Positions 52,730-64,000 of a DNA stretch of 64,000 nt are shown here, piece after piece. The notes under the pieces were generated by a model. That model saw only the letters and a list, made by a program, of their open reading frames with translations. It was not told the DNA's origin and made no database searches. A program made the position numbers and the translations under genes. Origin of the DNA: an uncultured Alphaproteobacteria bacterium (GTDB lineage: Bacteria > Pseudomonadota > Alphaproteobacteria > HIMB59); assembly GCA_902521795.1 (NCBI GenBank), contig CABYSX010000001.1, positions 1 to 64,000 of the forward strand, in the 5' to 3' direction. How positions within the stretch are numbered: the stretch's first letter is position 1; each line of letters opens with the position of its first letter.

Positions 52730-53764
52730 TTACTTAACTCCAAGTTTTTTTTGGAGATCACTTGAGGAGGTAGTGTACCTAAAAACATACTTTTTATCAC
52801 TATGGCAGTACTCAAACATTTTTTTTGCAGCAAGTGCAGCTTCATGAAAACCACTTAATATCAATTTTAACTTACCAGGGTAAATACAAATATCTCCCAC
52901 AGCAAAAATTTTTGGCACTGAGGTTTCGAAGTTTTCTGTGTTAACAGAAATATGATTTTTTTCTAAGTTTAATCCCCACTCTGCGATTGGGCCTAATTCT
53001 ATTTTTAAACCAAAAAATGGAAATATTGCATCAATGTCGTCAATTATTTTATCATCATCAAGAGTCGCTGTTACCTTCCCGTTTTCATTGAGAGTAACTT
53101 TTTTAAGACTTCCCATGTTGAAGTTTACCTCTCCCTTATCAACCAATGACATAACTTTATTCACTGAGTCCTGAACACCTTTGAATTCTTTTCTTCTATG
53201 GACCAGTGATACTTTTTTAGCAATACCCTGAAATCCCATAACATAATCCAAAGCAGAGTCACCACCGCCAATGATTAAAATATTCTTGTCTTGAAAGTCT
53301 GTTCTTTTTTTGACTGAGTAAAAAATATTCTTATTTTCTAATTGATCAGCACCTTCTGCTGGAAGTTTTCTTGGAACAAAACTACCTGCTCCAGCGGCTA
53401 TGACAACAGACTTACACTTGATTGAGGAGCCTTTGTCTGTTTCTACTAAAATATAATTTTCATTAATTTCAATTTTAGAGGTTAATTGGTTTAGGTGATA
53501 AGTAGGGTTGAAAGGTTCTGCTTGTTTAATTAAATCATCGGTTAACTCTTGACCAGTGATAGCTGGTCTACTTGGAATATCATATAAGTTCTTATCAGGG
53601 TAAAGCTCAGCACATTGTCCGCCAATCTTGTCTAGATTGTCAATGAGATGAGATTTCATATCTAAAAGGCCCAGCTCAAATACTTGGAAAAGACCGCAAG
53701 GACCAGCGCCAATTATAACTACATCTGTTTCATGACTGGATCCTGGATTTACAATATTATTCAT
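52730..53764 (-). CDS. Ferredoxin/flavodoxin-NADP+ reductase, thioredoxin-reductase-like type
   Basis: 'VVIIGAGPCGLFQVFELG', 'LIIGGGDSALDY', 'FAVGDICIYPGKLKLILSGFHEAALAA'. Confidence 0.85.
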   Translation of the reverse strand: MNNIVNPGSSHETDVVIIGAGPCGLFQVFELGLLDMKSHLIDNLDKIGGQCAELYPDKNLYDIPSRPAITGQELTDDLIKQAEPFNPTYHLNQLTSKIEINENYILVETDKGSSIKCKSVVIAAGAGSFVPRKLPAEGADQLENKNIFYSVKKRTDFQDKNILIIGGGDSALDYVMGFQGIAKKVSLVHRRKEFKGVQDSVNKVMSLVDKGEVNFNMGSLKKVTLNENGKVTATLDDDKIIDDIDAIFPFFGLKIELGPIAEWGLNLEKNHISVNTENFETSVPKIFAVGDICIYPGKLKLILSGFHEAALAAKKMFEYCHSDKKYVFRYTTSSSDLQKKLGVK

Positions 53765-54323: not shown

Positions 54324-55514
54324 CTAAACTTTTAACATTTTTCTAGCATACCAATCGTGAAAGACATGAGTTGGTTCATCCATTACTGGTGAAAAACGTC
54401 CTCCATCAAAGCGTTTCGCATACCGGCCTCGCTGCATTCCCTCAACTACAAAAATATCTTCTTCAAATACGGTTCTCCAAAGCTTAGTATTCTCTAAACG
54501 TGTTTGCTGATATTCATCAGACAACATAGAAGAGTCAGAATAATAGATTTCAACATGTTCTTTGATTTGATCACATCCAATTGGCTCAATAATTAGATTA
54601 AAAACATGATCTTTTTGAACACCCAATATTAAATTTGGAAATAAAACAATATATTCTCCTTTACTGTTCCATTCAGAGCTTAAATTTTTAAAATTTTGAA
54701 ATTGTTTTCCTGTTGAATATCTTGGAATATATTTATTACTAATTTGCCCAGAATAATGGCCATATTTAACAATATTTTCATGATCCTCTAACTTTGAATA
54801 ACTATTTAAACCTGGGTGTATCCAAGGAAGGTGATAGGACTCTAAGTAATTTTCGACTGCTAGTTTCCAATTAGTTTTGACCTCAAGCTCAAAAGATGAG
54901 TCGCTCATATCTGAATGCATAGGTTGATCAAAAGAGGACCATCGTTCTAACAAAGGTTTATGAACCTCTTCAAAGGGTTTTGCCCTTCCATCAGGATTCA
55001 CAAATATGACATCTCTCCAAACATGAGAGCGAACCTCAATTAATGATAATTCACTTTTATTAATATCGGAGTGATAGTTATAACCTGGCCCTCCAATATG
55101 AGGGGTGGCAACAACTTCTCCAGTTTGCTTGTAGCACCAAGAATGGTAAGGACAGCGAATTGCCCCCTTTAAAACTGTGGGTTCTTCAATAAGAGTCATT
55201 CCTCGATGTCGACATACGTTTTGAAAAACTCGTATTTTTTTATCTTGGATACTATGAATTAATAAAAGAGGATTTTTAAAATAGTTGACCGGTTTAACAG
55301 AGCCAGGTTGAGGTAGGTCTTTAACGAAGCCTACGGCAAACCAACCTTTGTTAAAAAGAATTTCTTTCTCTAAATCAAAATATTCAGTTTTAGTATAATA
55401 TTCATTGGGGATGCCTTTTGCTTCGTGTATTGGTTTAATACATTGTTCTAATTTTTGAAGATTTTGAAAATAAACTTGATCGGTATCTTGTTGATCAATT
55501 TTAACTTCTCTCAC
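54324..55514 (-). CDS. Rieske [2Fe-2S] non-heme-iron oxygenase, alpha subunit
   Basis: CRH-x(17)-CPYHSW Rieske ligands; 'NWKLAVENYLESYHLPWIHPGL' iron site. Confidence 0.9.
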   Translation of the reverse strand: MREVKIDQQDTDQVYFQNLQKLEQCIKPIHEAKGIPNEYYTKTEYFDLEKEILFNKGWFAVGFVKDLPQPGSVKPVNYFKNPLLLIHSIQDKKIRVFQNVCRHRGMTLIEEPTVLKGAIRCPYHSWCYKQTGEVVATPHIGGPGYNYHSDINKSELSLIEVRSHVWRDVIFVNPDGRAKPFEEVHKPLLERWSSFDQPMHSDMSDSSFELEVKTNWKLAVENYLESYHLPWIHPGLNSYSKLEDHENIVKYGHYSGQISNKYIPRYSTGKQFQNFKNLSSEWNSKGEYIVLFPNLILGVQKDHVFNLIIEPIGCDQIKEHVEIYYSDSSMLSDEYQQTRLENTKLWRTVFEEDIFVVEGMQRGRYAKRFDGGRFSPVMDEPTHVFHDWYARKMLKV

Positions 55515-55533
55515 AATTATTTCCTTTTTATTG

Positions 55534-57000
55534 TCACGTTAAATCTATCCAAATAGTTTTTAGCTCACAATACTGATCATGTGCAGCTAAAGATTTGTCT
55601 CTACCCCCAAAGCCGGAGAGTTTATAACCCCCAAAAGGAGTAGTGATATCGCCCTCACCGTAACAATTAACTGCTACAGTCCCAGCCTTAATTTTTCTTG
55701 CAGCTACATGAGCTGTCTTATTAGAGCTAGTAAAAATAGAAGCAGCCAGTCCGTACTTATTTTGATTAGCTAAAGCTATGCCCTCTTCTGAATCTTTAAA
55801 AGTTGTGATCCCTAAGACAGGGCCAAAAACTTCTTCAGAAAATAGTGTATTTTCAGGCTTTACATCATCAAATATGGTTGGCTGAACAAAATATCCACCT
55901 GTATCTTCTCTAGTTCTTTTGCCTCCAATAACTAATTTATTTTTATCCTGGTTAGCTTGATCAATGAAACCCATAACCTTGTCTAGATGTACTTGTTCAA
56001 TCATAGGGCCAATTTTAGTTGAAGCATCTAAAGGATCTCCCACTACCCACTCTTTGGATTTCTCGACAATTAATTCTAATAGTTCATCTTTGATTGACTG
56101 ATGGACAAGTAAACGAGAATTTGAAGAACAGTTTTCTCCCATATTCCAGAATATAGAATTAGTGGCATGATCAGCTGCTGTATCTAAGTCCTCAGTGTCA
56201 CCCATTACAATAAAAGGATTTTTCCCACCGCACTCTAGTAAAACTCTTTTAAGATTAGTATCAGCAGAGTAACGAAGAAACATTCGCCCAGTTTCTGTAG
56301 AACCAGTAAAAGCTACACAATCAACATCAGGATGTTCGCCTAGCGCTTTTCCTACAGTCTCACCAAAACCACAAACAACATTTATAACACCATCGGGAAT
56401 GCCAGCCTCTGCAGCAAGCTCTCCAATTCGAATTGTTGAAAGAGAGGTTTGTTCAGCAGGTTTCAAGACCACTGTATTTCCAGTTGCAAGAATGGGACCA
56501 AGCTTCCAGGCAGCCATCATTGCGGGAAAATTCCATGGTAGAATAGCTGCGACAACACCCATTGGCTCTCTGACAATCATCGAGAGGATACTTGGGTCAC
56601 TTGGAGAAATTTGATCATACAACTTGTCAATAGCTTCGGCGTGCCAGCGAATAGTATTAACTGTTTCTGGCATATCGATTTCTAGACAATCAGTTATAGG
56701 CTTGCCTGCTTCCATAGCTTCCATCATCGCTAACTCCTCTGCATGAGCCTCTATGACTGTTGCAAATCTCAATAAAACTTTTTTTCTCTCAGTGGGTGCC
56801 ATCTTAGACCAAGGACCCTCCTCAAAAGCTTTTCTTGCTGCGGACACCGCTTTATCAACATCTTCACCTGAAGCCTCAGCGATACTTGCTAAAACCTTTC
56901 CGTTAGCAGGGTTAATTGTTTCAAATGTTTTGCCTTCAGATCCGGGAAGAGGTCTACCTCCTATGATCAATTGCGTTGAAAAATCAACTGTTTTAGACAT
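55534..57000 (-). CDS. Aldehyde dehydrogenase
   Basis: 'FTGSTETGR', 'LLECGGKNPFIV', 'FWNMGENCSSNSRLLV', 'EEVFGPVL'. Confidence 0.92.
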   Translation of the reverse strand: MSKTVDFSTQLIIGGRPLPGSEGKTFETINPANGKVLASIAEASGEDVDKAVSAARKAFEEGPWSKMAPTERKKVLLRFATVIEAHAEELAMMEAMEAGKPITDCLEIDMPETVNTIRWHAEAIDKLYDQISPSDPSILSMIVREPMGVVAAILPWNFPAMMAAWKLGPILATGNTVVLKPAEQTSLSTIRIGELAAEAGIPDGVINVVCGFGETVGKALGEHPDVDCVAFTGSTETGRMFLRYSADTNLKRVLLECGGKNPFIVMGDTEDLDTAADHATNSIFWNMGENCSSNSRLLVHQSIKDELLELIVEKSKEWVVGDPLDASTKIGPMIEQVHLDKVMGFIDQANQDKNKLVIGGKRTREDTGGYFVQPTIFDDVKPENTLFSEEVFGPVLGITTFKDSEEGIALANQNKYGLAASIFTSSNKTAHVAARKIKAGTVAVNCYGEGDITTPFGGYKLSGFGGRDKSLAAHDQYCELKTIWIDLT

Positions 57001-57014
57001 TAATTACTCCTTAA

Positions 57015-57980
57015 TTAGTTCCTTTTAATTGAAGACTGGATTAACCAGTCTTTCTCTTCCTGCCAATCTCTCCAAACCAATCTATTGTTAGTAGTATGGT
57101 TGATGGGTAGTTTTGACATGGCAATTCTTAAATCATGGCGCGCAGGTGCTGCTACATTTGGTAGGGGTTTTCGGGGTGGGCCCATTTCTCTACCTGATAA
57201 ATTTGAGGCTGCTTTAATCCCTGTAAGGTAGTCAACGTCGTGTCTATTTCCTCCCAGCCATAAGCAAACGGGCTCCATCAATTTCCATAGATCCATAGCT
57301 TCTTGATATTTTTTTTCTTCAATTAAATTAAATAGTTTAACACATTCATGGGGCATAAAGTTTACAGCTCCCCAAATCATCCCTGTGCATCCACTCATTA
57401 ATGCAAATGGGGCAAAGGAGTCTATACCACAGAAAACTCTTCCTCCAGTCTTGATAAATTTTTGCAAATTTAAAAAGTCTCCTGAACTGTCTTTAATATA
57501 ATCTAAATTTTCTATTGCTAATAATTTACGATAAGTGTCTTCAGAGAGGGGTGCGGCTTGCTGTGGAACATTATACATTACGATAGGAATTCTCACTGCT
57601 TTTGCTATAGCCTCATAATGATAAATAACTCCACGTTCTGAGGGTGGTTCTAGGAAAGGTGGCATAACCATAATTGCAGTTGCACCTGCATCTTCTGCGG
57701 CCCTTGCTTTGTTGATACACTCATTAGTACTAAGTGCAGTAGTTTGTGCTATCGTAGGGCACCTACCATTAATATGTTTAACACCCTCTGTAATTAAAGT
57801 TTGTTTCTCATCATCTGTTAGATAAGCGTATTCACCGGTGCCAGAACATAAGACTAAACCATGTACACCCGCCTCTAATAAGTCATCAATGTGAGATTGG
57901 TAACGCATTAGATCAATTCCCTCTCCATTATCTTGGAATGGGGTACACATAGCTCCGTAGATACCTTTTAAAATAGTCAC
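57015..57980 (-). CDS. Dihydrodipicolinate synthase-family lyase/aldolase
   Basis: 'GLVLCSGTGEYAYLTDDE', 'VMYNVPQQ', Schiff-base 'YIKDSSGD'. Confidence 0.88.
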   Translation of the reverse strand: MTILKGIYGAMCTPFQDNGEGIDLMRYQSHIDDLLEAGVHGLVLCSGTGEYAYLTDDEKQTLITEGVKHINGRCPTIAQTTALSTNECINKARAAEDAGATAIMVMPPFLEPPSERGVIYHYEAIAKAVRIPIVMYNVPQQAAPLSEDTYRKLLAIENLDYIKDSSGDFLNLQKFIKTGGRVFCGIDSFAPFALMSGCTGMIWGAVNFMPHECVKLFNLIEEKKYQEAMDLWKLMEPVCLWLGGNRHDVDYLTGIKAASNLSGREMGPPRKPLPNVAAPARHDLRIAMSKLPINHTTNNRLVWRDWQEEKDWLIQSSIKRN

Positions 57981-58038
57981 TTTCCAATAATCTCCTTGTT
58001 TAGATTATCCAATGTATCATAATTGGTTATCATTTCTT

Positions 58039-59376
58039 TTATAAATCCCTGCCTGCTGTCATTTCTCGAGATTTAATTCTTAAGTTAGCACCTATTTGTG
58101 TTAAAAAATTAGGTGGTAAAAGACTAGGTTTTTCAATATTTTCATACTTATCAAGTTGAGATGAATTTGATTTACATGCCTTATCAATGATTAGTTTTCC
58201 TGCCAAAGTTCCTTTAACTGTTCCCAATCCATTTGAACAGCAGGCTGAATAAAGGTTTTCATCTAACTCACCAAAAGCAGGAGCACCGTTTAAAGAAAGA
58301 CAAACTCGCCCTCCCCAACTAAACTCAAAAGGTATTTGATTTAAATTAGGAAAGCGTCCTAAAAAACTTTTTCGGTGTTTTTGACAGGAGTTCTCAAAAT
58401 CAGAATTAAGTGACTCGAGACTTTGACGACACCTCCAAGTATTCCTAATGAGAAGCCTAGATTGATTTTCATTGACTTTAATTTTTCTGACAGTGGTACC
58501 TATAGGATTTGAGGAAGTCAAACCCCATGAGGGGTCACTTTTTAAAATGCTATCATCAAATTTTTTTGTAAGAGAGGAGTAAGTAAAAATATGAATAAGT
58601 TGATTTTTGTAAAATCCAAAATTATTTATATGCCCATTCACTGCAAAAATAATATTTTTACTAGTAATTTTTCCTTGAGAACTATGAGCATACCAAGTCT
58701 TATTTTTTTTTTCAATTTTTTTGATAGGACTATTTTGAAAAACTTTTATTTTATCACTAAGTCTTTCTACTATTCTTTTGATATATTCAGCAGGCTGAAT
58801 TAGAATTGTTCCAGGAGTATAAATTCCTTGTTCATAATAGTTGGAACCAGTAATTTCTAACATCTGTTTGGAATCCAAAGAATGATAATCCTCTCCTAAT
58901 GCCTCTAATTGTTTTTTATAATCTTTATTAAAAGAAATACCTTTGGTTGTTGCTGCACCATTTAGCTTTCCAATCTTATTATATACACTTTGGGGAATAT
59001 CGTACTCTTCAACCATTTGTGATGAAAATTCTATAGCCTCACGATTTAGAGAAATTGAGTCTTTATCTTTTTTAATTGAACTTAAATAATCACCTTTTGC
59101 ATTTATATTATGAGGAACATCAATCATGAAACCACTATTTTGGCCAGCTGCTCCTTCACCAATACCAATCGCATCAATTAGAATTATTTTGTCTCCACTA
59201 CGAAGCTCCGTTAGTCGTTTTGCTGCAGATATTCCTGCAAAGCCACTTCCAATAACAAGCCAGTCACAGGTGTGATCTCGATCAAGAGTGGGGGCAAAAT
59301 ATTGACTATCACTTGTTTTTAACCAGCCATTTTCGCCGATTTCTAATGGAAATTTGCTAGATGAGTAAGTAGTCAA
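58039..59376 (-). CDS. FAD-dependent amine/amino-acid oxidoreductase (DAO family)
   Basis: 'WLVIGSGFAGISAAKRL', 'GEGAAGQNSGFMID', C-terminal 'FEFSWGGRVCLS'. Confidence 0.85.
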   Translation of the reverse strand: MTTYSSSKFPLEIGENGWLKTSDSQYFAPTLDRDHTCDWLVIGSGFAGISAAKRLTELRSGDKIILIDAIGIGEGAAGQNSGFMIDVPHNINAKGDYLSSIKKDKDSISLNREAIEFSSQMVEEYDIPQSVYNKIGKLNGAATTKGISFNKDYKKQLEALGEDYHSLDSKQMLEITGSNYYEQGIYTPGTILIQPAEYIKRIVERLSDKIKVFQNSPIKKIEKKNKTWYAHSSQGKITSKNIIFAVNGHINNFGFYKNQLIHIFTYSSLTKKFDDSILKSDPSWGLTSSNPIGTTVRKIKVNENQSRLLIRNTWRCRQSLESLNSDFENSCQKHRKSFLGRFPNLNQIPFEFSWGGRVCLSLNGAPAFGELDENLYSACCSNGLGTVKGTLAGKLIIDKACKSNSSQLDKYENIEKPSLLPPNFLTQIGANLRIKSREMTAGRDL

Positions 59377-59393
59377 AACACTCTAAATATCTA

Positions 59394-60464
59394 CTACCCT
59401 TTGGGTAGCCACTTCTCTTCAGCTTTATACTTATCTTGATGCTTGGTATTAATGCTACTTAAAGTTTTATCTGTACCTAAGATAAAATGTTTGCTCATGT
59501 CAGGATAGTATTTGTAGGAGATAGGTTTACGACCTAAAGCCACAGCCATTTCTCTTACATGGTGTGGGGCTGCCCCACAGCATACTCCAATGAAATTAAT
59601 ATTTTTACTTTGACAATCTTTGGCAAACTCAGCCATTTCATATCGATTACAATAAAGATTATCAATACCCACAGGGAACGGTCTGTTATTAGGAATACAA
59701 TCACAGCCCTCATCTGGCAAAGAAAACCAAACTGGAAATTCATCTGTAGTTCTGACGGGAACAGGCAACCCTGCAACATGACAAGATACTTTTTCACGAA
59801 TTTTAATTAAATGTTTCATTGTATGGTAAGGTCCTCTAAAACAATTTAAGCCCACAACCTCAGCGCCATTATCTTCAAACTTTTTACAAGCATCCTCCGG
59901 GGTATCATTATCCCTTGTAAGGTCATTTGCTGGTATAGCTAAATTTACAACTGCTATTAAGCCTGCCTCTTTTATTTTTTTAAGAGCAATCAACGCCTCA
60001 CCAGTCCATTGAATTGTTTCAGCTACAACAAAGTCCACGCCTGCATCCTTTGCCCAGCCAATTTGTTCTTCATACATCTTCTCTACTTCAACTAATGAGG
60101 ATTTATTATTGGGGTCATATATATTCGTGTTAGCAACATCTCCTGCGATCATTAAATCTAAATCAGGAAATTCATTCGCAGCATCTTTTGCAATTTTTAG
60201 AGCATTTAATTGAAGTGGTTCAAGTAGTTCCTCTTTACCTATCAATCGAAGCTTTTCACGATGACCATAATATGTGAACGCTTGAACAACATCACTGCCT
60301 GCTCTAATAAATTCTCGATGAAGCTGGGTCACCACTTCAGGATGCTCTAAAACTACTTCTGGTACGAAGGCGCCTGCCTGTAGATAGCCTCTTTTTTCCA
60401 TTTCAAATAAATAACCCTCAGCACACAAAACTGGGCCCTTGTCTAATCTTTGAATTAAATCCAT
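59394..60464 (-). CDS. Homocysteine S-methyltransferase family (betaine-homocysteine methyltransferase-like)
   Basis: 'GLNC' and 'GVCCGA' zinc ligands; 'AEGYLFEMEKRGYLQAGAFVPE'. Confidence 0.85.
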   Translation of the reverse strand: MDLIQRLDKGPVLCAEGYLFEMEKRGYLQAGAFVPEVVLEHPEVVTQLHREFIRAGSDVVQAFTYYGHREKLRLIGKEELLEPLQLNALKIAKDAANEFPDLDLMIAGDVANTNIYDPNNKSSLVEVEKMYEEQIGWAKDAGVDFVVAETIQWTGEALIALKKIKEAGLIAVVNLAIPANDLTRDNDTPEDACKKFEDNGAEVVGLNCFRGPYHTMKHLIKIREKVSCHVAGLPVPVRTTDEFPVWFSLPDEGCDCIPNNRPFPVGIDNLYCNRYEMAEFAKDCQSKNINFIGVCCGAAPHHVREMAVALGRKPISYKYYPDMSKHFILGTDKTLSSINTKHQDKYKAEEKWLPKG

Positions 60465-60559: not shown

Positions 60560-61654
60560 GTGGGGGCAAAAAAAGCAGATTTTTTCGACTCAAGGGATAA
60601 ATATTTATCTTTCGTCAATTCAACAAATGAGAAAAGTAAAATTGCTTTTGAACTCGCAAAATACATAAAAAAATCAAAGATAACCAAAGATGCTTTTAGA
60701 ATTTTTGACGCTGGAACTGGTGATGGGAGTGTAATCTCTACTCTTTTATCTGCTGCTCACGAGAAATTTCCCGAAGACCCTATTATTGTTGTAGGAAAAG
60801 AAATAAGTATTGATGATATCAATAGCTTACTAGCTTTTTTAGGTTATCGGTTCTATGAACATAAAAATTTAGTTTTTTGTATCACGAATGCTTCTTACAA
60901 AGATATCCATGAGAAAGAGTTTAAAGATTGTAAGCTTATAAAAAAAGAACTCTCAGGGAACTCTAGTTTTAGTTTTAATCAGCAGCTGATGAATATGAGT
61001 GATGTCATTAAAAAAAATTGGGAGATAAAAGAAGATACATCTTCTACAATATTACGACCTAAACATAAAAGCTTTATGGTTATTTATAGAAAAGATCAAA
61101 AAATACCTTTAATTCATTTAATTCCTAAAAAATTAACTGATGTCCCCAAGGTTTATGACTTTATTATAGCCTCACAGGCCTTTCGATTGAGATCGCCCTA
61201 TCAAAGAACTTTGAATCTGGTGTTATTACCATTGATAAGGATGTTAGATTTTAAAGGGCAACTATTTTTTATCTACTCATCAGGAAATGATTTTACGAAA
61301 AAAATATTAAAACAATTTTTTCCTAAAATTAATCCATTTCAATTTAATGACCCAAAAGCTTTTATAAAAACTATCTCACAAAATATTCCTGAATTTTCAA
61401 AAAAATACAAAGTAAATATATCGAGTTTCTTTTTCTCTTTCCTAAATATATCTCTTTCTTCAAAAAGAAAATTTTCTCCCATGAATTCACTAGGACTATG
61501 GAATGCCATTACTTATGTAGGTCAAATATCAGAAAATGAGCAAAATAAGATTAATATAAATGTTAAATTTTTGGATAAAATCAGTATTAGTGCGAAAAAA
61601 CTCTCTTTAAACTTTAAAGATAATATGATGAGGTTTGAAAAAAAAATAAAATAA
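60560..61654 (+). CDS. Putative class I SAM-dependent methyltransferase-like protein (GTG start)
   Basis: Motif-I-like 'FRIFDAGTGDGSVISTLL'; rest unrecognised. Confidence 0.5.
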   Translation: MGAKKADFFDSRDKYLSFVNSTNEKSKIAFELAKYIKKSKITKDAFRIFDAGTGDGSVISTLLSAAHEKFPEDPIIVVGKEISIDDINSLLAFLGYRFYEHKNLVFCITNASYKDIHEKEFKDCKLIKKELSGNSSFSFNQQLMNMSDVIKKNWEIKEDTSSTILRPKHKSFMVIYRKDQKIPLIHLIPKKLTDVPKVYDFIIASQAFRLRSPYQRTLNLVLLPLIRMLDFKGQLFFIYSSGNDFTKKILKQFFPKINPFQFNDPKAFIKTISQNIPEFSKKYKVNISSFFFSFLNISLSSKRKFSPMNSLGLWNAITYVGQISENEQNKININVKFLDKISISAKKLSLNFKDNMMRFEKKIK

Positions 61655-61668
61655 ATTAATGTTTATTA

Positions 61669-62955
61669 ATGAGTAATTTTTCCAGCAAATTCGCAGATCG
61701 TAAAATTGGACCAAAGTTTCTCGAGTCTATTAACCAAAATTATCAAAATCAAATTTATAAACCTCGACTCTATGAAGATAAGATAAATTTTGACCGTCTG
61801 AGAATGTACCGATTAAACAGGGTGCAAGAACAACTTCGTTTAAATAATGTGGGAGCATGTATTTTATTTGATCCCATTAATATTAGATATGCAACTGATA
61901 GCAGAAATATGAGCTTATTTACAATGCATGAACTGGTTCGTTTTGTGTTTATTTCTGCAGACAACAAAGTAATTTTATTTGATTACCCTAAAAGTGAACA
62001 CCTCTCTAGTCACCTCTGTACAATTGACGAAATAAGAGAAGTTGTAAGTTGGGATTTTTTTTCTGCAAATAATTTTGTCGATAAAAATGCAAAACACTGG
62101 GCTGGTATTGTTCAAGATTTAATGCGTGAGCATTCTCCTGATAACAACAGACTAGCTATTGATGTATCTGACCCTGTTGGAATTCAAATGCTTCTTAAGC
62201 AATTTAATGTTGAAATATTAAATGCTCAAAAAATTGTTGAAACTGCAAGGTCAATAAAATCAGAAGATGAGTTAGTATGCATGAAGGCCTCTATAGAGAC
62301 AGCTGAAAAAGGAATGTGGCTGATGAAAGAAAAATTACATGCTGGAATGACGGAGGAAGAACTTTGGTCATATATGCATAAGGTTAACATTGAAAGTGGA
62401 GGTGAGTGGTTCGAAACTCGTCTATTAGTATCTGGCCCAAGAACAAATCCATGGCTTCAAGAATGTAGTAATCGTGTGATTGAATCAGGTGATGTAGTAG
62501 CTTTTGATACTGATATGGTTGGACCCTACGGATATTGCGCAGATATATCTCGAACCTTTGTTGAGGGAAATAAGTTTAGTGATGAACAAAGAAGACTTTA
62601 CGATTTGGCTTTAGAACATATCAATCACAACAAGTCTCTTATCAAAGCTGGTGTAAACTTTCTAGAATTTGCAGAACAATCTTGGAAGTTACCTGATAAT
62701 TGCTATGACAATCACTATCCTTGTATTATCCATGGTGTAGGATTATGTGATGAATGGCCTTTTGTTGCATACCCTAATAAAGATTTTAGTAACTCTGATT
62801 ACTCTGCTTGCTTTGAAGAAAATATGACTATTTGTGTGGAGAGCTATATTGGAGAAGTTGGAGGAAAAGAAGGAATAAAACTTGAGGATCAATTCTTAGT
62901 CACTAAAGATGGACTTAAACAGTTGAGTTCATTTCCTTACGAGTACTCAAACTAA
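61669..62955 (+). CDS. dddP: M24-family protein, DddP-like (candidate DMSP lyase)
   Basis: 'GGEWFETRLLVSGPRTNPWLQEC', 'AFDTDMVGPYGYCADISRTF', 'HGVGLCDEWPFVAYP', 'CVESYIGEVGGKEGIKLEDQ' match DddP motifs as I recall them. Confidence 0.7.
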   Translation: MSNFSSKFADRKIGPKFLESINQNYQNQIYKPRLYEDKINFDRLRMYRLNRVQEQLRLNNVGACILFDPINIRYATDSRNMSLFTMHELVRFVFISADNKVILFDYPKSEHLSSHLCTIDEIREVVSWDFFSANNFVDKNAKHWAGIVQDLMREHSPDNNRLAIDVSDPVGIQMLLKQFNVEILNAQKIVETARSIKSEDELVCMKASIETAEKGMWLMKEKLHAGMTEEELWSYMHKVNIESGGEWFETRLLVSGPRTNPWLQECSNRVIESGDVVAFDTDMVGPYGYCADISRTFVEGNKFSDEQRRLYDLALEHINHNKSLIKAGVNFLEFAEQSWKLPDNCYDNHYPCIIHGVGLCDEWPFVAYPNKDFSNSDYSACFEENMTICVESYIGEVGGKEGIKLEDQFLVTKDGLKQLSSFPYEYSN

Positions 62956-63279: not shown

Positions 63280-64000
63280 TTATTTCATTCCAGTCATGGT
63301 AATGCCTTCGACAAATCTCTTTTGAGCTATGATGAAAGCCACAATCAGTGGAACTGTCACAGTAACTATTGATGCCATCATTGGTCCAAATTCATCACTA
63401 TCAATTCCGCCTCTAAATTCTCTAATACCTAGTGGTGGTGTAAATAAATCACGATTACCGGTAATGACAATCCGAGGCCAAAAATAATCATTCCAGTGAG
63501 CAACAACAGAGAAAATTGCAAAAGCTAGTAACGCAGGTATCGCTACGGGAAGCATTACTTTCCAAACAATAGAGTATTCTCCCATTCCATCCATCCTAGC
63601 AGCATCAATTAGTTCATCTGGCACTGTCATAAAGAATTGCCGCATAAGAAAAATACCAAATACTGATATCGTCCAGGGTATTATCAAGGCTGCATACGTG
63701 TCTACGAGACCAGCCTTTGCCAACATCACATATAAGGGTAAAGCGATAGCATGAACAGGTATTAAAAGACAAAAAAGAACCATTGAAAACACAAATTCTC
63801 TTCCTTTAAACCTGAGTTTTGCGAGAGCGTAAGAACACGGAAGAGCGATTAAGACTTGTATTAAAAAAATTGACACAGTCACAATCAAACCATTCATTAA
63901 ATACCTCGGAATTGGAGCTTTTTTGAAAGCAAACCAGAAATTGTATTTGTAAGGACGCATTGTACATACCTCTTCGGTATATCCGTGCTTAGTACAAACA
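63280..64000 (-). CDS. Sugar ABC transporter permease (UgpE/MalG type), 5' end beyond the window
   Basis: EAA-like loop 'DELIDAARMDGMGEYSIVWKVMLPVAIPA'; frame remains open upstream of the track's ATG at 63960 to the window edge. Confidence 0.85.
   Translation of the reverse strand, partial: VCTKHGYTEEVCTMRPYKYNFWFAFKKAPIPRYLMNGLIVTVSIFLIQVLIALPCSYALAKLRFKGREFVFSMVLFCLLIPVHAIALPLYVMLAKAGLVDTYAALIIPWTISVFGIFLMRQFFMTVPDELIDAARMDGMGEYSIVWKVMLPVAIPALLAFAIFSVVAHWNDYFWPRIVITGNRDLFTPPLGIREFRGGIDSDEFGPMMASIVTVTVPLIVAFIIAQKRFVEGITMTGMK

Follow-up and report, generated by a model that had tools for sequence, protein, structure and literature searches.

Hydroxyproline betaine serves marine plankton in salt balance; radiolarian holobionts of the open ocean contain it, as identified by comparison with standards (PMC11965087). 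Bacteria of the HIMB59/AEGEAN-169 lineage are frequent in the surface water of the open ocean, and their diet is poorly known. A published route for hydroxyproline leads to alpha-ketoglutarate by way of a cis-4-hydroxy-D-proline (cHyp) oxidase of the DAAO superfamily, a pyrroline-4-hydroxy-2-carboxylate deaminase of the DHDPS superfamily, and an alpha-ketoglutarate semialdehyde dehydrogenase. The hpb/hyp catabolism of Pelagibaca and Paracoccus (Zhao et al. 2013 and Kumar et al. 2014, both cited by PMC4113996) joins these steps to 4-hydroxyproline betaine 2-epimerase (HpbD), a Rieske oxygenase and an HpbA-like demethylase. Rieske oxygenases acting on quaternary amines form group V, and are divided by the residue at the position of CntA Y203: an aromatic residue is found in group Va (carnitine, choline), and Asn in the demethylases GbcA and Stc2 (PMC7948474), which represent subgroup Vb.

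HIMB59/AEGEAN-169 has a two-family structure (PMC10734472). The lineage literature that we searched names phosphonates, glycine betaine, urea, creatine and fucose as substrates, and mentions neither hydroxyproline nor a Rieske enzyme. Here we analyse a 64,000-nucleotide stretch (the window) of contig CABYSX010000001.1, from a 1.2-Mb draft HIMB59 genome that is 84.8% complete, together with genus-mates that include single-cell genomes and a closed genome of 1,410,127 bp. From sequence comparison and gene linkage, we propose that a five-gene operon in the window (BHMT2-FAD oxidase-DapA-ALDH-Rieske) probably breaks 4-hydroxyproline betaine (N,N-dimethyl-4-hydroxyproline) down into alpha-ketoglutarate and ammonia.

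Results

A conserved five-gene operon

The initial annotation described five consecutive minus-strand genes, and family scans, intact motifs and conserved order confirm that description (Table 1). All five genes are intact and tightly packed on one strand, with intergenic gaps, from the Rieske end, of 19, 14, 58 and 17 bp. The gene order is not a product of chance or of assembly, because several related single-cell genomes preserve it, with proteins that are 93-100% identical. Neither a promoter/terminator scan (no signal above shuffled background) nor a search for regulatory RNAs (e.g. a SAM riboswitch) upstream of either BHMT gene of the genome yielded a candidate.

Table 1. Features of the operon and its surroundings, in window coordinates
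Feature	Position	Strand	Evidence or remark
TrxR-like ferredoxin-NADP reductase (presumed name)	52730..53764	-	candidate Rieske electron source; putative function, from synteny
Rieske oxygenase alpha subunit	54324-55514	-	Pfam Rieske 64.6 bits, Ring_hydroxyl_A 122 bits
Rieske codons Y223-L224-E225	54840..54848	-	aligned to CntA Y203-M204-E205: aromatic pi-cation residue and bridging Glu
ALDH, proposed alpha-ketoglutarate semialdehyde dehydrogenase (HypH role)	55534-57000	-	569 bits
DapA/DHDPS-family lyase, proposed pyrroline-4-hydroxy-2-carboxylate deaminase (HypD role)	57015-57980	-	160 bits
DAO-type FAD oxidase, proposed cis-4-hydroxy-D-proline oxidase (HypO role)	58039-59376	-	104 bits
BHMT2, BHMT-type S-methyltransferase (second copy, first operon gene)	59394-60464	-	134 bits
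Divergent 364-aa protein	60560..61654	+	methyltransferase-like DAGTGDG motif; matches no family

Thirteen other genomes of the genus keep the block, most commonly in the same layout as in the window. Two of them (G147 and G001) have the order BHMT2-FAD-DapA-ALDH-HpbD-Rieske-quinone-oxidoreductase-like, and G002 has this order without the ALDH gene. In the closed genome G030 the first four operon genes come after an ordinary BHMT gene, and the Rieske gene lies about 12 kb from the trio (FAD oxidase, DapA and ALDH), accompanied by the quinone-oxidoreductase-like gene and the ferredoxin reductase. The Rieske gene is present in 13 of the 14 trio-bearing genomes (the 14th is interrupted by a contig end); it also occurs without the DapA trio in about nine genomes of the genus, and several genomes keep Rieske and ferredoxin reductase where the trio is missing. 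In G009 these two genes adjoin the ordinary BHMT. Two strains (G023 and G032) have lost ALDH through a single clean deletion of about 1.55 kb, which fuses DapA near codon 296 to the last ALDH codons.

For the importer from position 63280 onward, a betaine-type binding protein had been named as a point to check; a role as betaine importer is rejected, as the importer is Ugp-type with a UgpB-like binding protein and is part of a phosphonoacetate island, in which phosphonoacetate hydrolase and phosphonoacetaldehyde dehydrogenase score above curated cut-offs. The island is missing at the same place in G029, G003 and further relatives; OpuAC-type proteins are encoded elsewhere in the genome. For the 364-aa neighbour, the AlphaFold model (pLDDT 45) is too poor for use.

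Two candidate demethylases

The best matches of the Rieske protein are the GbcA model (108.5 bits) and the CntA structure (107.6 bits), with aromatic oxygenase models at 48-74 bits. It is nearer to quaternary-amine than to aromatic oxygenases, as the initial annotation had proposed, and aromatic ring hydroxylation, which had been named as the outcome that would speak against this, is ruled out on family scores and signature. The catalytic motifs (CxH/CxxH and 2-His/Asp) are intact. With group V enzymes (CntA, choline monooxygenase, GbcA, Stc2) the protein shares the bridging Glu and the NWKxxxEN(Y)xE motif, although it is only 26% identical to CntA. At the CntA 203 position, however, it carries Tyr223 in place of the Asn of subgroup Vb, and Tyr or Phe is found there in all close Rieske relatives. 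The window Rieske thus has the Va aromatic residue, yet its genomic ties are to demethylation, the Vb activity: either the Va/Vb rule is not strict, or the chemistry of this Rieske differs.

These ties are seen in the sister family, where coordinate comparison places an HpbA-family protein within about 50 bp after a Rieske relative (43-45% identical) in 13 genomes. The two of these HpbA-like proteins whose full sequences were compared share 58-59% identity with HpbA of P. pantotrophus, an N-methyl-L-proline demethylase; this level of identity cannot separate N-methylproline from dimethylglycine demethylases, as the subgroups are mutually 54-59% identical. In G038 and G039 it is a 72%-identical BHMT that is followed by a member of the HpbA-like demethylase family. 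Because each adjoins this same family, BHMT and Rieske appear to be interchangeable quaternary-amine demethylases, occupying the same first-demethylation slot. An HpbA-like second demethylase was not found in the genus of the window strain, so taking off the second N-methyl group would fall to the Rieske, the FAD enzyme or another activity. As for electrons, the gene that we take to encode a TrxR-like ferredoxin-NADP reductase lies at most four genes from the Rieske gene in those same-genus loci read that show both, and stays near it also where the Rieske has left the operon (G030, G009, G026).

BHMT2 scores 154 bits against BHMT-1 structures and, by alignment to human BHMT, keeps the Zn-binding Cys217/299/300 and the betaine-site Glu159 and Tyr77. 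In its BHMT fold, Zn cysteines and betaine-site residues it resembles the SAR11-type Bhmt; it differs in being a second copy inside a hydroxyproline-type operon and in having Phe at the human W44 position. It is 71% identical to a separate, genus-wide ordinary BHMT encoded in the same genome (G000:C14), which has Tyr at that position, and is close to glycine-betaine-type BHMT, with few site differences.

A hydroxyproline-type trio

The DAAO, DHDPS and ALDH superfamilies are encoded together in the operon. The resemblance of the trio to the logic of D-hydroxyproline degradation, noted from the start, is borne out at the level of superfamilies and linkage: they are the same three as in the published cHyp pathway. 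In Agrobacterium vitis and Paracoccus alcaliphilus such a trio adjoins an annotated 4-hydroxyproline epimerase and a betaine-type importer, with no demethylase adjoining, and the window proteins are 38-42% (FAD), 52-54% (ALDH) and 28-30% (DapA) identical to theirs. The operon ALDH groups with trio ALDHs, and is 52-54% identical to ALDHs of trios adjoining either 4-hydroxyproline epimerase or HpbD. The nearest relative of the FAD oxidase outside the genus (42%) is the A. vitis protein adjoining the epimerase, with which it joins in the FAD tree at modest support (80/91); against the PDB it gave no match.

The DapA-like protein departs from this pattern. It has the Schiff-base Lys (YIKDSSG) and the YNVP Tyr, and lacks the Arg138-type residue of DHDPS (YNVPQQAA); its score against the true DHDPS equivalog (162 bits) is below the cut-off of 206. 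It belongs to a different clade from the DapAs linked to 4-hydroxyproline epimerase, whose active-site motifs also differ. Unlike known 4-hydroxyproline degradation loci, moreover, the operon has no proline-racemase-type epimerase. For the hyp genes of S. meliloti, pSymB 255-300 kb proved to be the wrong region.

Linkage to HpbD and the missing epimerase

In G147, G001 and G002 the DapA/ALDH block and the Rieske gene flank the gene of a 367-aa protein. This protein matches structures 4h2h/2pmq and 4e8g/4izg/4j1o, which we take to be HpbD, with 492-515 bits, is 57% identical to the annotated hpbD product of P. pantotrophus, and falls below the cut-off of the model for its dehydratase cousins (263 against 500). 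The linkage recurs in other lineages: in a distant MAG (L110) HpbD (49%) comes immediately before a DapA with 67% identity and an FAD oxidase; in Sinorhizobium mexicanum HpbD lies about 11 kb or less from DapA/FAD relatives; and in Leisingera and Cereibacter it adjoins FAD/ALDH/DapA. In Leisingera the genes run MttB-like, HpbD, two SDR genes, FAD/ALDH/DapA, Rieske; this Rieske (54% identity) is separated from HpbD by about 8 kb and from the trio by 3 kb.

The lack of a 2-epimerase in the window was reported correctly by the initial annotation and extends to the whole available genome (84.8% complete), in which HpbD is absent, as it is in 10 of the 13 DapA-bearing relatives, closed G030 among them. 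The proline-racemase-type 4-hydroxyproline epimerase (PF05544) is found in none of the 14 trio-bearing genomes, again including G030. An enolase-superfamily gene at C21 gave no HpbD match at the threshold used, and is unlikely to be the missing epimerase.

Discussion

A proposed route and its rivals

Betaine demethylation followed by D-hydroxyproline degradation, among the possibilities raised initially, seems the best supported, and the linkage to HpbD would narrow the substrate to hydroxyproline betaine; for homarine, trigonelline and carnitine, which had also been listed, the linkage found offers no support. In the proposed route BHMT2 would move a methyl group from the quaternary nitrogen to homocysteine, yielding methionine (step 1), or, alternatively, the Rieske, presumably reduced via the nearby ferredoxin reductase, would use O2 to demethylate oxidatively with release of formaldehyde. 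The remaining N-methyl group may then be taken off by the Rieske or the FAD enzyme (step 2). The FAD oxidase would convert cis-4-hydroxy-D-proline to pyrroline-4-hydroxy-2-carboxylate (step 3), which the DapA-like protein would deaminate to alpha-ketoglutarate semialdehyde (step 4), to be oxidised to alpha-ketoglutarate by the ALDH (step 5). Linkage suggests steps 1 and 2, and published family chemistry together with gene linkage points to steps 3-5; we infer the substrate, its stereochemistry, the order of demethylation and the electron donor. In G147, G001 and G002 the in-operon HpbD would make the D-form from the common L-form. Because HpbD is lacking in the window strain, as in most related genomes, this strain may use D-configured hydroxyproline betaine or have an epimerase of an unrecognised type.

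Several of the observations above count against this reading: the absence of HpbD from the genome and from most relatives, and of any proline-racemase-type epimerase; Tyr in the Rieske where the characterised demethylases GbcA and Stc2 have Asn; the separate DapA clade; the missing HpbA-like second demethylase; the ALDH deletion in two strains; the genomes with Rieske and no trio; and the closeness of BHMT2 to glycine-betaine-type BHMT.

Some of these are what would be seen if the operon combined two independent modules, a trio for free cis-4-hydroxy-D-proline or another cyclic D-imino acid, and BHMT2 plus Rieske for glycine betaine or another betaine. Such a division would fit the Rieske-bearing genomes without a trio (once with the Rieske adjoining the ordinary BHMT), the 12-kb separation in G030, and the A. 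vitis and P. alcaliphilus trios that adjoin no demethylase. We nevertheless consider it unlikely, as the Rieske accompanies the trio in every trio-bearing genome but the one cut by a contig end, the betaine-acting HpbD sits inside the operon of three relatives, and glycine betaine would not need a second BHMT, given the copy already present at C14.

The Tyr at the CntA Y203 position, and CntA as best PDB match, would also suit a CntA/choline monooxygenase-like (group Va) enzyme that oxidises the carbon beside the quaternary nitrogen, leaving the ALDH to oxidise the aldehyde released, and Roseobacter relatives do show a Rieske-ALDH pair. The Roseobacter ALDH, however, is of another subfamily (35%), whereas the operon ALDH groups with trio ALDHs; the sister-family Rieskes pair with an N-demethylase rather than an ALDH; and a carnitine or choline route has no place for DapA and the FAD oxidase, all of which makes this chemistry quite improbable. 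Degradation of homarine, trigonelline or another N-methyl heterocycle we regard as very improbable: plankton holobionts contain homarine and trigonelline (PMC11965087), and a 2026 study is reported to describe a conserved homarine pathway (cited by PMC13390433, which names the homarine enzyme Mgd), but the genes found linked in the different lineages encode HpbD, 4-hydroxyproline epimerase and the HpbA-like demethylase.

A probable unusual version of a known pathway

The hydroxyproline-betaine reading places the locus beside the hpb/hyp catabolism of Pelagibaca and Paracoccus, with which it has in common the DAAO/DHDPS/ALDH steps, a Rieske and, in three relatives, HpbD. It differs in that most HIMB59 members are without HpbD, in that BHMT2 heads the operon and no HpbA-like demethylase is present, and in its Rieske, which shares only 22% identity with the Rieske encoded next to P. 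pantotrophus hpbD and whose diagnostic site holds Tyr rather than Asn. The operon is most likely an unusual version of the known hydroxyproline-betaine pathway, with the usual first enzyme missing and different demethylases. A more specific and rather doubtful extension is that most strains of the HIMB59 family run an epimerase-free version that uses D-configured betaine directly, with a dedicated second BHMT yielding methionine and the Va-signature Rieske as N-demethylase, while HpbD strains use the L-form, a stereochemical split of niches.

If the proposed route is correct, the missing epimerase would become a directly testable question, and the BHMT and Va-signature Rieske, as alternative betaine demethylases, would test the published Va/Vb rule. 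Hydroxyproline betaine would then be a predicted food of HIMB59/AEGEAN-169, with the operon as its marker.

Genes adjoining the operon

Upstream of the five-gene operon lie two genes and a phosphonoacetate island that runs past the end of the window.

Features upstream of the operon
Feature	Position	Characteristics
364-aa protein	window 60560-61654	divergent to operon; DAGTGDG methyltransferase-like motif
M24 protein	window 61669-62955	similar to DddP, a DMSP lyase; scores 377 bits against a cut-off of 600 bits
Phosphonoacetate island	window 63280-64000, on to ~G000:C1:72705 (L003:3280-12705)	

The 364-aa protein matches no family, and its gene is kept together with the operon; in genome G030 a different methyltransferase-like gene (L067:3865-4491) stands near this position in its stead. 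The M24 gene usually adjoins BHMT across the genus. The island encodes a Ugp-type importer, a UgpB-like binding protein, phosphonoacetate hydrolase and phosphonoacetaldehyde dehydrogenase. It also carries a gene for a MetE-like protein and one for a PsrA-like iron alcohol dehydrogenase, the latter scoring slightly below its cut-off. No such island occupies the corresponding position in several relatives, and the terms phnA and ugp are absent from the text of the HIMB59 phosphonate-island paper.

Variation and origin of the operon genes

Two strains, G032 (L069) and G023 (L070), share the same deletion of ~1.55 kb at the DapA-Rieske junction, which has removed ALDH and the C-terminal tail of DapA and joined DapA in frame to the final ALDH codons. 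In G149 (C1:51839-59900), Rieske and HpbD-like (4-hydroxyproline betaine 2-epimerase-like) sequences are interrupted by many stops and frameshifts; either this copy of the cluster is decaying or the assembly is poor.

The DapA proteins form two distinct clades, one with the motif YNYPxR (loci L114, L115, L085 and L089), the other with YNVPQ (the window, L107, L110 and L088). Because both have the same FAD oxidase partner, and in many cases share their ALDH and HpbD partners as well, we suggest that DapA paralogues were interchanged or recruited in parallel.

A further conserved, genus-wide locus (L121; G000:C21:628-3670) encodes an enolase-superfamily protein flanked by two homocysteine-methyltransferase-like genes. 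As for BHMT2, the second BHMT copy and first operon gene, it lies in tandem with the ordinary BHMT in G030 (L067:5916-8041), which suggests that it originated by a duplication predating the spread of the operon.
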